Shown: piece after piece, positions 48,454 to 52,764 of the stretch
How the letters are laid out: each line of letters starts with the position of its first letter
Numbering within the stretch: the stretch's first letter is position 1
Notes under the pieces: generated by a model
The model's input: only the letters and a program-made list of their open reading frames with translations
Told to the model about the DNA's origin: nothing
The model's database searches: none
NCBI GenBank assembly: GCA_021739695.1
Contig: JAIPBM010000002.1
Coordinates: 124,001 to 188,000, forward strand
From: Flavobacteriales bacterium
Lineage (GTDB): Bacteria; Bacteroidota; Bacteroidia; UBA10329
Direction of reading: 5' to 3'
Length of the DNA: 64,000 nucleotides
Program-made: the position numbers and the translations under genes

Positions 48454-48861
48454 ATGTCGGTCGAAGTAAATGATAGAACCAAAGCTCAACGTCTTCACCA
48501 AGAGGTAAAGCAGTGGCAGTCTGAGCTTAATTCACATGTTATTGACCTCATGTTTTTTCAGCGCATGCTGGACATATATGCCTTGAAGGATGTTGGAACA
48601 ATTTCGGAGTCTGCTGATATCGGACATCTCAAACAAACCCTAAGCTCATTTTTGCAGTTTCGGGTAGAGCGACAAAAACAGCAATTAAGAGAACATGAAG
48701 AATATCTCCTGAAAATTGCTGAAGACCGCGTGTTGCTTAAGGATCGGGAATTTCCATTCAAACATCAGGACGTGGAGAAGGAGATGCGTGACTTTAGGAC
48801 AGGTTATCAGGCGCTTCAGGCCAGTTTGTATGAAAAAATTGAGCAACTCAAAAACTACTGA
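48454..48861 (+). CDS. Small helical coiled-coil protein, unknown function
   Basis: A 135-residue protein with no signal peptide or membrane helix, predicted to be almost entirely helical and charged: RTKAQRLHQEVKQWQSELNSH, DIGHLKQTLSSFLQF, RVERQKQQLREHEEYLLKIAEDR and DVEKEMRDFRTGYQALQASL. No family is recognised. It reads as a cytoplasmic coiled-coil adaptor. Coding preference and the clean boundaries between two divergent operons support it as a real gene. Confidence 0.7.
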   Translation: MSVEVNDRTKAQRLHQEVKQWQSELNSHVIDLMFFQRMLDIYALKDVGTISESADIGHLKQTLSSFLQFRVERQKQQLREHEEYLLKIAEDRVLLKDREFPFKHQDVEKEMRDFRTGYQALQASLYEKIEQLKNY

Positions 48862-48998: not shown

Positions 48999-49439
48999 CT
49001 ATTTTATAATTTCTGCCTGAAACATTTGGTAAGGCACAGCATTCATTTCGCCTTGCGTGTTGATCTGTAAGATTCCTTTGAATGTGACCATCTGATCGGT
49101 GCTGAAGCGAGGGAATTTACCGTTAGGAAAAAGCTCGACAACTGTTTCTGGCCCTGCGTTACCGCAGAAAAAGCAATTGGCAAACGGATTGGCAGAAACC
49201 ATGTACATGCCCAATTCCACATCAACTGGAATCACGTAGCCCTTCACTTTGATTTCCTTCCCGTTCAAGGCCATTAGTTCCTTGGAAAACTCTGGTGGTT
49301 TCACATTTACTTCAAACCCGAATGTTTCAGAATATTGTCGATGGAATTTCACTTGGGCAAACGTGTTCCAGCCGACTAGGGTTTGTCCTGAAACGGAGAG
49401 AGAACCAACTATGAGAAAAAACGAAAGAAGAAACCTCAC
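48999..49439 (-). CDS. Secreted CFFCG-motif protein A (DUF3299-like)
   Basis: A 146-residue exported protein with a signal peptide (MRFLLSFFLIVGSLSVSGQ). The core contains KVKGYVIPVDVELGMYMVSANPF followed by CFFCGNAGPETVVEL, with two cysteines in a CxxC arrangement, and a small beta domain afterwards. A paralog of identical length (146 residues) with the same CFFCGNAGPE block is encoded directly upstream. The start codon is GTG and overlaps the stop codon of that paralog by 4 bases. The block resembles DUF3299 proteins, which have been linked to zinc-regulated ABC systems; metal binding is inferred from CxxC only. Confidence 0.8.
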   Translation of the reverse strand: MRFLLSFFLIVGSLSVSGQTLVGWNTFAQVKFHRQYSETFGFEVNVKPPEFSKELMALNGKEIKVKGYVIPVDVELGMYMVSANPFANCFFCGNAGPETVVELFPNGKFPRFSTDQMVTFKGILQINTQGEMNAVPYQMFQAEIIK

Positions 49440-49876
49440 TTGGGCGTAGCGTTTTGAAGAATGTAATTGCAGTGTTCCAGATCATCCCAATTCAGCTTCA
49501 ATCTTCCTCGGAACGTCAGAATCTCATCTGTTTTATAAGCGCCCTTATTTCCTTCGATAAATTGAAGCTCCATCACACTTTCCGGCCCTGCATTTCCACA
49601 GAAAAAGCATGAGGCGAATGGATTGGCTGAGAGAACATAGTAGCCCGATTCAACATCAACTGGAATAATGTAGCCTTCGAGTTCAACGAGCGCGCCATCC
49701 AGCGCCAACACCTCTTTACTGAAATCGGGATAATAGACCGTTTCGTCATATTCCTCGAAGTATTTTTCGCCCCATACAACCTTTGCCAGTAACGACCATT
49801 CAATCTTTTTGTGCTGCGCCCTTCCTTCGGAGAAAAGAGAAAAAGAGAAAAAGAGAAAAAAGACCAGCCTACTCAT
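49436..49876 (-). CDS. Secreted CFFCG-motif protein B (DUF3299-like)
   Basis: A 146-residue paralog of the downstream gene, with signal peptide MSRLVFFLFFSFSLFSEGRAQ. A longer frame with 20 extra residues at the N terminus exists, but the ATG at 49874-49876 gives a proper signal peptide, a length equal to the paralog's, and only an 8-base overlap with the permease gene. The core has ELEGYIIPVDVESGYYVLSANPF and CFFCGNAGPESVMEL. It follows the FtsX-type permease gene of an ABC transporter, so both small proteins are likely partners of that transporter outside the membrane. Confidence 0.8.
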   Translation of the reverse strand: MSRLVFFLFFSFSLFSEGRAQHKKIEWSLLAKVVWGEKYFEEYDETVYYPDFSKEVLALDGALVELEGYIIPVDVESGYYVLSANPFASCFFCGNAGPESVMELQFIEGNKGAYKTDEILTFRGRLKLNWDDLEHCNYILQNATPK

Positions 49877-51092
49877 TGCGCAAAATGCTTGAAATATCTG
49901 AACGATAAGCACGAATGGCCGGAATAATGGCCGCAATCAATCCAACACCCAGCGTGAATGGCAACAACCACAGTTCAACAGTTGAGACACCGCTTTGCAT
50001 CACACTAAAGTGAAATTGTTCTTCGCCAAAAGATGAAAGCATCATAATTCCAACACGCCCTAAGATGATGCCAAAAGCGTATCCGACCAAGCACAGCAGC
50101 AAACTTTCCTGCACGACCAGACCGAATAATTTAGAAGGTGAAGCACCGAGCGAACGCATAAGCGCCAATTCGTATTTCCGCTCTTTAAGCGAATTGAGCA
50201 ACGAAATGAAAACGCTTAGCGCGGCAATTAACATCATCAGCATTCCAATGGCTTGCAATGTGCTGAAACCAATTCCCATCAACTCATATAGACGATTGAT
50301 TTCGATGGCAGGGAGCCCAGCCTGCATTGAGGTTTTTTCGTTCACCATGCGTGGTATTTGCATGATTCCCATCGGACTTTTAAACTTGACCAATAGAGCG
50401 GTTATCTCGCCTTTTTCTTCATCCAAGTGGTGTTCGTGCTCGTCTTTATGAGCATGCTCTTCGTGTGCCGGCTCATCATGATTGTGGATATCCCAAACAC
50501 TTTCTGTGGATGTAAGAATGAGCCGGTCGACCACCGTTCCTGTTGGATTTAGAATTCCAACCACGTTATAATGCGATTCTTCGTGCGCGTGGCCTTCTTC
50601 GTCAAATCCATGGTTTCCATGAAAATGAGAACCTATTTTGAGACCAAGTTTTTCGGCAGCAGCGCTTCCCAAAACCACATCCATACTGTGGTTCCAAATT
50701 GTTCCATCAGAAAAAGTTGCCTCATAGTGACGGAGGTAAAGCGAGTCGGTTCCTACAATCCGAATGCCCTTGTAACTATCGCCATACGAAAGCGGGATGC
50801 TGTATTTGATAAGTGGATGTCGCTTCAGTTTATTTGCCTCAGCAAGCGGAATATTTCCGGTTGGGTTATCAATTTGATAAACGGCCGAAAGAATGAGTTG
50901 CAGCGGACTTCCTTTTGCGCCCACAACCATGTCAATACCGCGAATGTCACGCGTAAATCGATCATTCAGTTGTTCGCTTACGGTAACGATGAATGAAACC
51001 ATTCCCACACCGATGGAAAGCAGCATAATGCTAAGCGCAGTGGTGAGGAAATGTTCCTTCAGATTGGCGTATGCGAGCTGCAGCGTCTTCAT
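49869..51092 (-). CDS. ABC transporter permease, FtsX/MacB-like, with His-rich external loop
   Basis: A 407-residue protein: one N-terminal helix (TALSIMLLSIGVGMVSFIVTV), a large extracytoplasmic domain (residues ~45-275), and three more helices in the C-terminal part (around 280, 330 and 375). This is the four-helix LolC/MacB/FtsX architecture. The external domain contains two His clusters: residues 156-174 (six His, HFHGNHG ... HAHEESH) and residues 203-222 (eight His, including HAHKDEHEHH). Such clusters usually bind zinc or other transition metals. The gene overlaps the ATPase gene by 4 bases (ATGA). Confidence 0.9.
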   Translation of the reverse strand: MKTLQLAYANLKEHFLTTALSIMLLSIGVGMVSFIVTVSEQLNDRFTRDIRGIDMVVGAKGSPLQLILSAVYQIDNPTGNIPLAEANKLKRHPLIKYSIPLSYGDSYKGIRIVGTDSLYLRHYEATFSDGTIWNHSMDVVLGSAAAEKLGLKIGSHFHGNHGFDEEGHAHEESHYNVVGILNPTGTVVDRLILTSTESVWDIHNHDEPAHEEHAHKDEHEHHLDEEKGEITALLVKFKSPMGIMQIPRMVNEKTSMQAGLPAIEINRLYELMGIGFSTLQAIGMLMMLIAALSVFISLLNSLKERKYELALMRSLGASPSKLFGLVVQESLLLCLVGYAFGIILGRVGIMMLSSFGEEQFHFSVMQSGVSTVELWLLPFTLGVGLIAAIIPAIRAYRSDISSILRNE

Positions 51093-51715
51093 ATTTCCAC
51101 CGAATTCAGAAAGCGGTTTTTCAATCGTTGATCGTGTGTGACGATGACGAGCGCTGCGCCATGACCAGTGACGGTTTTCTGTAGCAGGTCTGCTACTAAC
51201 TCGCAGTTTTCATCATCCAAAGCGGAGGTCGGTTCATCTGCCAGAACAACTTTTGGTTGCGTGATCAAAGCCCGCGCAATTCCCGCACGTTGACGTTCCC
51301 CGATACTCAACTCATTTGGTCGATTTTTGGCTTTATCGGCAATACCGAGTTCAGAAAGAAGCTCATTGGCAAAAGCCTCGTCATTGGGAAGTCCAGCAAG
51401 CGAGCGCGCCAATTGCAAGTTTTGCATCACGCTGATGGAGCGGATAAACTGCGCCTGTTGGAAAACCATTCCGATGTTTTTCCCTCGGAAAGCATCACGC
51501 GCTTTTCCTTTCAGTTTGGTGATGGACTGTCCATCGATGGTCACAGAACCTGAATTCGGCTCCATCAATCCGGCCAACAGATGCAAAAGCGTTGTTTTTC
51601 CTTTTCCTGAGCGACCTAGAACCAAAAGAACCTCAGTAGGTTCAACTGAAAGGTCAGAGAACGAGAAGCTCGGTCCGTTCGCGTAGCTAAAAGAAAGGTC
51701 TTTTGTTTGCAGCAT
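51089..51715 (-). CDS. ABC transporter ATP-binding protein (LolD-like)
   Basis: A 208-residue nucleotide-binding subunit with all motifs: Walker A GRSGKGKTT, Q-loop MVFQQAQF, signature LSIGERQRAG, Walker B VVLADEPTSALDDE and the H-loop THD. The short length and sequence type place it in the MacB/LolD group that pairs with FtsX-like permeases. It is the first gene of a four-gene minus-strand operon (ATPase, permease, two secreted CFFCG proteins). Given the partners, release of lipoproteins seems less likely than metal or redox handling in the envelope; this is inference. Confidence 0.93.
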   Translation of the reverse strand: MLQTKDLSFSYANGPSFSFSDLSVEPTEVLLVLGRSGKGKTTLLHLLAGLMEPNSGSVTIDGQSITKLKGKARDAFRGKNIGMVFQQAQFIRSISVMQNLQLARSLAGLPNDEAFANELLSELGIADKAKNRPNELSIGERQRAGIARALITQPKVVLADEPTSALDDENCELVADLLQKTVTGHGAALVIVTHDQRLKNRFLNSVEI

Positions 51716-51780
51716 TTCTTAATGATGCAAAACTAATGGGTTGACCGTAGGTTCGTACTTTTAGCCGACATTCTAAGAAC

Positions 51781-52764
51781 ATGCTTGAACGACCTAGACG
51801 AAACCGCGCCACCGAAACCATCCGAAGTTTGGTTCGAGAGACGCGCCTCGACCTTTCCAATTTGATTTATCCACTTTTTATGGTGGATGGAAAAGGAATT
51901 AAGGATGAGATTGGTTCGCTGCCTGGCATTTATCGTTTTTCGGAAGACAAATTGCTGAAGGAGGTGGAAGAGTCGATGAACCTTGGATTGCGTTCGTTTG
52001 TGCTTTTTCCTGCTGTAGAAGATTCGCTTAAGGACAAGGTTGCGAGCTACGGTTATGATGAGAAGAATTTCTACTTGCGCATTATCGCGAAGCTGAAAAA
52101 AGAATTTCCAGAAAGCTGCTTGATCAGCGATGTAGCCATGGACCCGTACAGTTCTGACGGACATGATGGATTGGTGGAAGACGGAAGAATATTGAATGAT
52201 GAAACGCTCGATATTCTTGGACAAATGGCGGTTGCCCAGGCCGAAGCGGGCATTGACATCATCGGTCCGTCTGATATGATGGACGGCCGCGTGCAACACA
52301 TTCGAGAAGAATTGGACGATGCCGATTTTGAGAACGTGGGCATCATGAGTTATACCGCCAAATATGCGAGTGCTTACTACGGTCCGTTTCGCGATGCGTT
52401 GAGTAGCGCGCCAAAATCGGGGGACAAAAAGACATACCAAATGGATCCCGCCAATAAATGGGAAGCGCTTCGCGAAGCAGAACTGGACGCTTCGGAAGGA
52501 GCAGATTTTCTAATGGTGAAACCAGCACTTCTGTACTTGGACATCATCCATCTTCTGAAAGAAAAGTTTGAATTACCGATTGCCGCCTACAATGTGAGCG
52601 GAGAATATGCCATGCTGAAAGCAGCGGCACAGAACGGTTGGTTGGATTATGATAAGGCGATGCCCGAAATGCTGTTGAGTTTCAAGCGTGCTGGAGCTTC
52701 GGCAATCCTTACCTATTTTGCCAAGGAATACGCCCAAATGCTAAAAGATGGGAAGCTTGCTTAA
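51781..52764 (+). CDS. hemB: Delta-aminolevulinic acid dehydratase (porphobilinogen synthase)
   Basis: The 327-residue HemB. The metal region reads DVAMDPYSSDGHDGL, with Asp replacing the cysteines of the zinc-type enzymes, so a magnesium-type enzyme is expected. GADFLMVKPALLYLD contains the Schiff-base lysine, and the second lysine lies in the KSGDKKTYQMDPAN block. The C-terminal AILTYFAKEYA is family-typical. It condenses two ALA molecules to porphobilinogen for haem synthesis. The next gene overlaps its 3' end by 17 bases. Confidence 0.96.
   Translation: MLERPRRNRATETIRSLVRETRLDLSNLIYPLFMVDGKGIKDEIGSLPGIYRFSEDKLLKEVEESMNLGLRSFVLFPAVEDSLKDKVASYGYDEKNFYLRIIAKLKKEFPESCLISDVAMDPYSSDGHDGLVEDGRILNDETLDILGQMAVAQAEAGIDIIGPSDMMDGRVQHIREELDDADFENVGIMSYTAKYASAYYGPFRDALSSAPKSGDKKTYQMDPANKWEALREAELDASEGADFLMVKPALLYLDIIHLLKEKFELPIAAYNVSGEYAMLKAAAQNGWLDYDKAMPEMLLSFKRAGASAILTYFAKEYAQMLKDGKLA

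Follow-up and report, generated by a model that had tools for sequence, protein, structure and literature searches.

What might an operon of the Zrg type do without ZrgA, a protein required in Vibrio cholerae (PMC9820375)? The question is raised by four minus-strand genes of an uncultured Flavobacteriales bacterium from a MAG lineage near UBA10329, which encode an ATPase, a permease, and two exported paralogs of 146 amino acids (A and B) and lie in a stretch of 64,000 nucleotides referred to here as the window. In the named systems, ZrgB is the permease, ZrgC the ATPase, and ZrgE a DUF3299 protein (PMC9817125); zrg operons are repressed by Zur and are required under zinc limitation. How a MacB-like ABC protein might contribute to zinc uptake is disputed: import, with ZrgA as the binding protein, has been argued for Vibrio (PMC9820375; import also in PMC9817125), whereas export has been argued for Pseudomonas (PMC11481552). 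With a probability of approximately 60%, the window operon is regarded here as a ZrgA-less Zrg-type (ZrgC-ZrgB-ZrgE-ZrgE) type VII ABC system that deals, under scarcity, with zinc or a similar transition metal. No description of a ZrgA-less Zrg system from Bacteroidota was found in the open literature, subscription journals being outside the search.

Operon anatomy and kinship with Zrg systems

The first gene (51089..51715, minus strand) encodes a ZrgC-type ABC ATPase of 208 aa (PF00005, 4.5e-34) with Walker A (GRSGKGKTT), signature (LSIGE), and Walker B (LADEP) motifs. It is followed on the same strand by the gene for a ZrgB-type permease of the FtsX/MacB kind with a His-rich ectodomain (49869..51092, 407 aa; FtsX 6.6e-16, MacB_PCD 2.4e-10) and by those for small proteins A (49436..49876, ATG start) and B (48999..49439, GTG start); for A, a longer ORF with a TTG start and the same stop also exists. 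The original prediction had described four genes linked by overlaps of 4-8 bases and twin secreted paralogs sharing the block CFFCGNAGPE. In operon order, the overlaps measure 4, 8, and 4 bases (ATGA, ATGAGTAG, and GTGA), and both paralogs, each 146 aa long, carry the block as well as a Sec-type signal with no lipobox in the N-terminal sequence. A spacer of 65 bp (51716..51780) separates the operon from a divergent hemB, and TAGTTTTG at 51735-51728 within it resembles a -7 element of Bacteroidota; scans for sigma-70 promoters and terminators gave matches at shuffle level only.

Within the host genus, two adjacent small proteins are encoded in 8/9 genomes, and hemB adjoins the operon in most of them. 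Among 56 Bacteroidota permease loci, the ATPase gene is directly upstream of the permease gene in 45, and a small protein is encoded at most 1 kb downstream of it in 41. In one genus member (L053:4669-5838), a Fic-family gene splits the operon between ATPase and permease. The divergent hemB of the window (51781-52764) encodes DPYSSDGHDG where a Cys-rich zinc site would be and is presumably of the zinc-independent type. A coiled-coil ORF (window 48454-48861), with a weak spectrin-repeat match below the cut-off, also adjoins the operon across the genus.

The core Zrg kinship of the operon is well supported by sequence comparison. Phaeobacter ZrgB matches the window permease at 178 bits (8e-53), and a search with Phaeobacter ZrgC retrieves the corresponding ATPases from the operons of relatives. 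The best annotated relatives of the permease are located on plasmids. In Phaeobacter, the operon runs Fur-DUF2796-ATPase-permease-DUF3299; its DUF2796 protein scores above the NCBIfam ZrgA cut-off (219.7 vs 185 bits), and its Fur protein fits Zur best, below the cut-off (90.8 of 167 bits). The annotated Pseudooceanicola operon reads ZnuA-GTPase-GTPase-...-DUF2796-ATPase-permease-DUF3299-DUF3299, and the same four genes occur in an Aeromonas record. In the permease tree, Zrg-type permeases are split from 11 FtsX paralogs of the window genome by a branch with a support of 100; Proteobacterial ZrgB proteins form one clade (100), and Bacteroidota permeases form one group with modest support (73). 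On these matches and this tree, the window permease is classed as a ZrgB relative. The likeness to the Vibrio system proposed in the original prediction extends to the permease and the small proteins, which are related to ZrgB and ZrgE, respectively. Like ZrgABCDE of V. cholerae and V. parahaemolyticus and PA4063-PA4066 of Pseudomonas aeruginosa, the window operon combines a separate ATPase, a MacB-like permease with four transmembrane segments, and a periplasmic DUF3299 OB-fold protein. It differs from these systems in that ZrgA (DUF2796) is missing and a His-rich stretch is present in the permease instead, the DUF3299-type protein is doubled, CFFCG replaces CxHxPPPP, and a Zur box was not found.

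The nearest solved folds to the permease model (pLDDT 85.6) are LolE and MacB. The type VII ABC permease fold and the MacB_PCD ectodomain are shared with MacB and LolCDE, but in the window operon the ATPase is not fused to the permease, MacA and lipoprotein partners are absent, and the scores are far below curated cut-offs. MacB is a fused ATPase-permease of about 650 aa; membership in this family was rejected, as the ATPase and permease of the window are separate genes and the score reaches 18 of 966 bits. It is very improbable that the operon represents a housekeeping type VII ABC system, LolCDE-like or otherwise, acting in lipoprotein release or envelope stress, in which the histidines would be incidental. 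The ATPase does score best against LolD and the permease weakly against LolCE, and the permease model matches the LolE fold, but these equivalog scores (171 of 308 bits for LolD, 48.5 of 362 bits for LolC/LolE) led to rejection of LolCDE membership. Moreover, the operon is found in only approx. 12% of Bacteroidota genomes, whereas Lol is essential; the small proteins are not related to lipoprotein chaperones, and the histidine triad described below is absent as a set from 12 FtsX paralogs of the same genome.

Permease histidines and the absence of ZrgA

Two His clusters of the permease, at residues 156-174 and 203-222, had been noticed in the original prediction, and they hold 14 of its 19 histidines (hypergeometric chance 4e-12). 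The most telling feature was overlooked there and is new here: three of the permease histidines, H161, H170, and H203, are near-invariant, and an insert occurs mainly in the ZrgA-less branch. The alignment comprised 64 Zrg-type permeases from three phyla, namely 56 from Bacteroidota, 3 from Deinococcota, 1 from Shinella, and 4 Proteobacterial ZrgB proteins (Phaeobacter, Pseudooceanicola, Aeromonas, and Catenovulum; ZrgB of Vibrio and Pseudomonas lay outside it). H161 and H203 are conserved in 100% of these proteins and H170 in about 95%, the four Proteobacterial ZrgB sharing all three with the window. In particular, H161 to H170 span an HG...H motif (50583..50612, minus strand), and H203 (50484..50486, minus strand) belongs to a WxxH motif and is present in 64/64 Zrg-type permeases and 0/12 paralogs. 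None of the 12 FtsX paralogs taken from the window genome has a histidine at 170 or 203, and two have one aligned at 161. We infer that H161, H170, and H203 form a putative metal site of the ectodomain. The three residues offer a precise site for mutation, by which the mechanism could be tested in any member of the family.

H203 is followed by a His-rich insert (residues 204-224; 50421..50483, minus strand) that is predicted to be disordered, with pLDDT below 50 at model residues 205-224. In Bacteroidota permeases, this insert is acidic and contains a median of 5 and a maximum of 27 histidines; at least three are present in 44/56 Bacteroidota permeases, 0/4 Proteobacterial ZrgB, and 0/3 Deinococcota permeases, fewer than three in the remaining 12/56 Bacteroidota proteins, and six in that of Shinella.

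ZrgA had been expected to be missing, and this was borne out: PF10986 (DUF2796) gave no match above the cut-off in 395 Bacteroidota genomes or in 9 genomes of the host genus, whereas the same search detected ZrgA in 3/3 Proteobacterial records. Four Bacteroidota genomes gave weak hits to PF10986 that stayed below the cut-off. Judged by these profile searches, the absence is real and phylum-wide among the 395 Bacteroidota genomes. It has been reported that ZrgA and ZrgE homologs invariably accompany the ABC pair (PMC11481552); in contrast, the Bacteroidota systems imply that the core consists of the ABC pair and a DUF3299-type protein. Because ZrgA, needed in V. cholerae, is missing, the operon might serve another function. 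The ZrgA-bearing Phaeobacter, Aeromonas, and Pseudooceanicola have permeases without the His-rich insert, and the ZrgA sequences of Phaeobacter and Aeromonas are His-rich. This apparent swap of the His-rich part between ZrgA and the permease insert is a pattern and not a rule, since the Proteobacterial sample numbers four, Catenovulum has no annotated ZrgA adjacent, and Deinococcota have neither element. A more specific proposal, to which somewhat less than an even chance is given, is that the operon belongs to a separate Zrg branch that has given up the zinc-binding protein and in which zinc is received directly by the permease, with His-rich capture on the ectodomain placed over an ancestral, three-His metal site common to all ZrgB proteins.

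The exported proteins A and B

Proteins A and B are approx. 40% identical. Their shared block is encoded at 49580..49609 in A (C90, C93) and at 49146..49175 in B (C89, C92), both on the minus strand; in an alignment of 54 homologs, its first Cys is invariant and its second is conserved in at least 90%. CFFCG aligns with CIHVPPPP of ZrgE. Distant small proteins (L086:7784-8197 and L079:7811-8308) have CYFE or CYFH in place of CFFC, the second Cys being swapped for other possible metal ligands. The suggested comparison with DUF3299 (PF11736) succeeded for the family and fell short for the individual twins: B reached 15.1 bits against a cut-off of 22 and A gave no match, but 30/54 family members match the domain (best 3.4e-9). 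The top PDB sequence for the family profile is 4hsp, P. aeruginosa PA4066 (2.8e-4), a ZrgE homolog, and the same entry is the top fold match of the AlphaFold2 model of B (pLDDT 90; 3.5e-4, TM 0.49) and its sole match at E < 0.001. Profile, predicted fold, and intermediate sequences all place A and B among the DUF3299 (ZrgE-type) OB-fold proteins, as divergent members.

In the small-protein tree, the A and B sequences cluster in a group restricted to the genus (support 91), and the twins are, by this tree, a genus-level duplication. B lies on a long stem (0.99) and therefore diverged faster than A. The original prediction treated the duplication as a distinguishing trait, which does not hold: tandem DUF3299 genes are present in the Pseudooceanicola zrg operon and four copies in a Bacteroidota locus, L085, and these tandem copies fall in other branches of the tree. 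The zrg cluster of Pseudooceanicola algae p111 resembles the window in that ATPase and permease genes precede two tandem DUF3299 genes; it differs in its adjacent DUF2796 (ZrgA), ZnuA, and two GTPase genes and in a permease without the His-rich insert. The four tandem small proteins of L085 (6496-8787) are encoded with a Fur-family regulator among them. No phage relatives of protein A were found.

Zinc context and the direction of transport

A search for a Zur-type operator upstream of 51715, proposed in the original prediction, returned none near the operon: no GTTATANTATAAC-like site occurs near 51.7 kb, though the Bacteroidota Zur motif could differ, and Zur-like palindromes in the whole window number 20 versus 22 expected by chance. 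The window locus itself has no zinc gene (no CobW, MerC, PhoA, or Zur-like neighbour). As it has neither a Zur box nor a zinc gene, the zinc role of the operon rests on homology. The host genome encodes one Fur-family regulator, located away from the operon, and ZnuA was found in 0/9 genus genomes (control positive in 11/14). In one genus member (L162), a second Fur gene adjoins START and DUF4625 genes, with no zinc genes. A convincing CobW was not found in the host genus: matches are only near the cut-off (20-32 bits) and fall in frames whose lengths suit other GTPases, e.g., MeaB or SRP proteins, so that a local link to ZigA is lacking.

Neighbourhoods were compared, as the original prediction had proposed, over 76 loci, with genes within 3 kb set against those lying farther off at each locus. 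CobW (10 vs 0, Fisher p 8e-4), MerC (6 vs 0, p 0.014), and PhoA (4 vs 0, p 0.06) occur near the operon, with p-values that are optimistic because the baits were picked after being sighted there; the loci are also partly related. Against the ZigA zinc-metallochaperone model (cut-off 600), two of the neighbouring CobW proteins reach 565 and 529 bits and a third reaches 292. MerC lies in front of the L085 operon, which has a Fur-family gene inside it, and MerC and a Fur-family gene closest to Zur, weakly, precede that of L150. At another Bacteroidota locus, L062, the operon is preceded by two CobW GTPases and followed by a PhoA alkaline phosphatase. Copper was considered as the metal, given a Sco-like and a cytochrome c-like gene, both identified by eye alone, that turn up repeatedly at the loci of one family; neighbours of the ZigA-like, Zur-like, and PhoA kinds speak for zinc instead.

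In Deinococcota and Shinella, PhoA (by PF00245), a small protein, the ATPase, and the permease are encoded in this order without ZrgA. This operon shares with the window a ZrgB-like permease with the His triad and a small exported CxxC protein; it differs in its order, alkaline phosphatase first, and the Deinococcota permeases have no insert. It carries no name in the records (L088:3710-8203, L089:4069-8197, L090:4119-8224, L185:1961-6188, L187:1918-5717). The arrangement suggests a link between the ABC module and a zinc enzyme, and, together with PhoA at L062 and orphan small genes that occur without the ABC pair, it is consistent with a system that loads or matures secreted zinc enzymes, the small proteins being metallochaperones and the cytoplasm not being fed. 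This reading is nevertheless considered unlikely, because such an enzyme is missing next to the majority of Bacteroidota loci, that of the window among them, and the CobW/ZigA and Zur-like neighbours serve cytoplasmic zinc.

According to the preferred reading of a ZrgA-less Zrg system, the operon would act on scarce metal at the inner membrane, on its outer side. The flexible His/Asp/Glu-rich insert might gather the metal, replacing the His-rich loop of ZrgA, and H161, H170, and H203 would bind it; the exported OB-fold proteins A and B may accept it or pass it on via the CxxC-bearing block. ATP hydrolysis would move the ectodomain by mechanotransmission (cf. MacB/LolCDE) and thereby power metal transfer. 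The net effect is most likely zinc acquisition, although the direction of transport is disputed in the literature. Several points speak against this reading: the missing Zur box and zinc gene at the window locus, the absence of ZrgA, ZIP importers, which are present in the host genus and could supply zinc, the lone distant Fur gene, the low-His inserts of 12/56 permeases, and the argument for export in P. aeruginosa.

Cells of P. aeruginosa that had lost PA4065 contained more pyochelin and cobalt, from which the authors concluded that a pyochelin-cobalt complex is exported (PMC11481552); the roles of PA4063 and PA4066 have been described as unclear (PMC8561739). On an exporter reading, the MacB-like pair would expel a metallophore, either free or complexed with metal, that the cell produces or takes up when zinc is scarce, and the exported proteins would serve as adaptors. 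A classical import pathway is indeed absent from type VII ABC folds, and the permease model is nearest to LolE and MacB. Export is still held to be improbable for the window operon, as genes for MacA or TolC-like proteins are not a recurrent part of it or of the conserved neighbourhoods of relatives, no metallophore synthesis gene was recognised in those neighbourhoods, which are only partly annotated, the near-invariant ectodomain histidines fit bare metal better, and the V. cholerae data favour zinc import.

The neighbourhoods also suggest a role for DUF3299, a family of unknown function. DUF3299-like genes without the ABC pair are found directly beside genes of CobW-family GTPases at L066:7820-9332, L070:6442-8196, and L084:6193-8224; the GTPase of L066, the one tested of the three, is ZigA-like.
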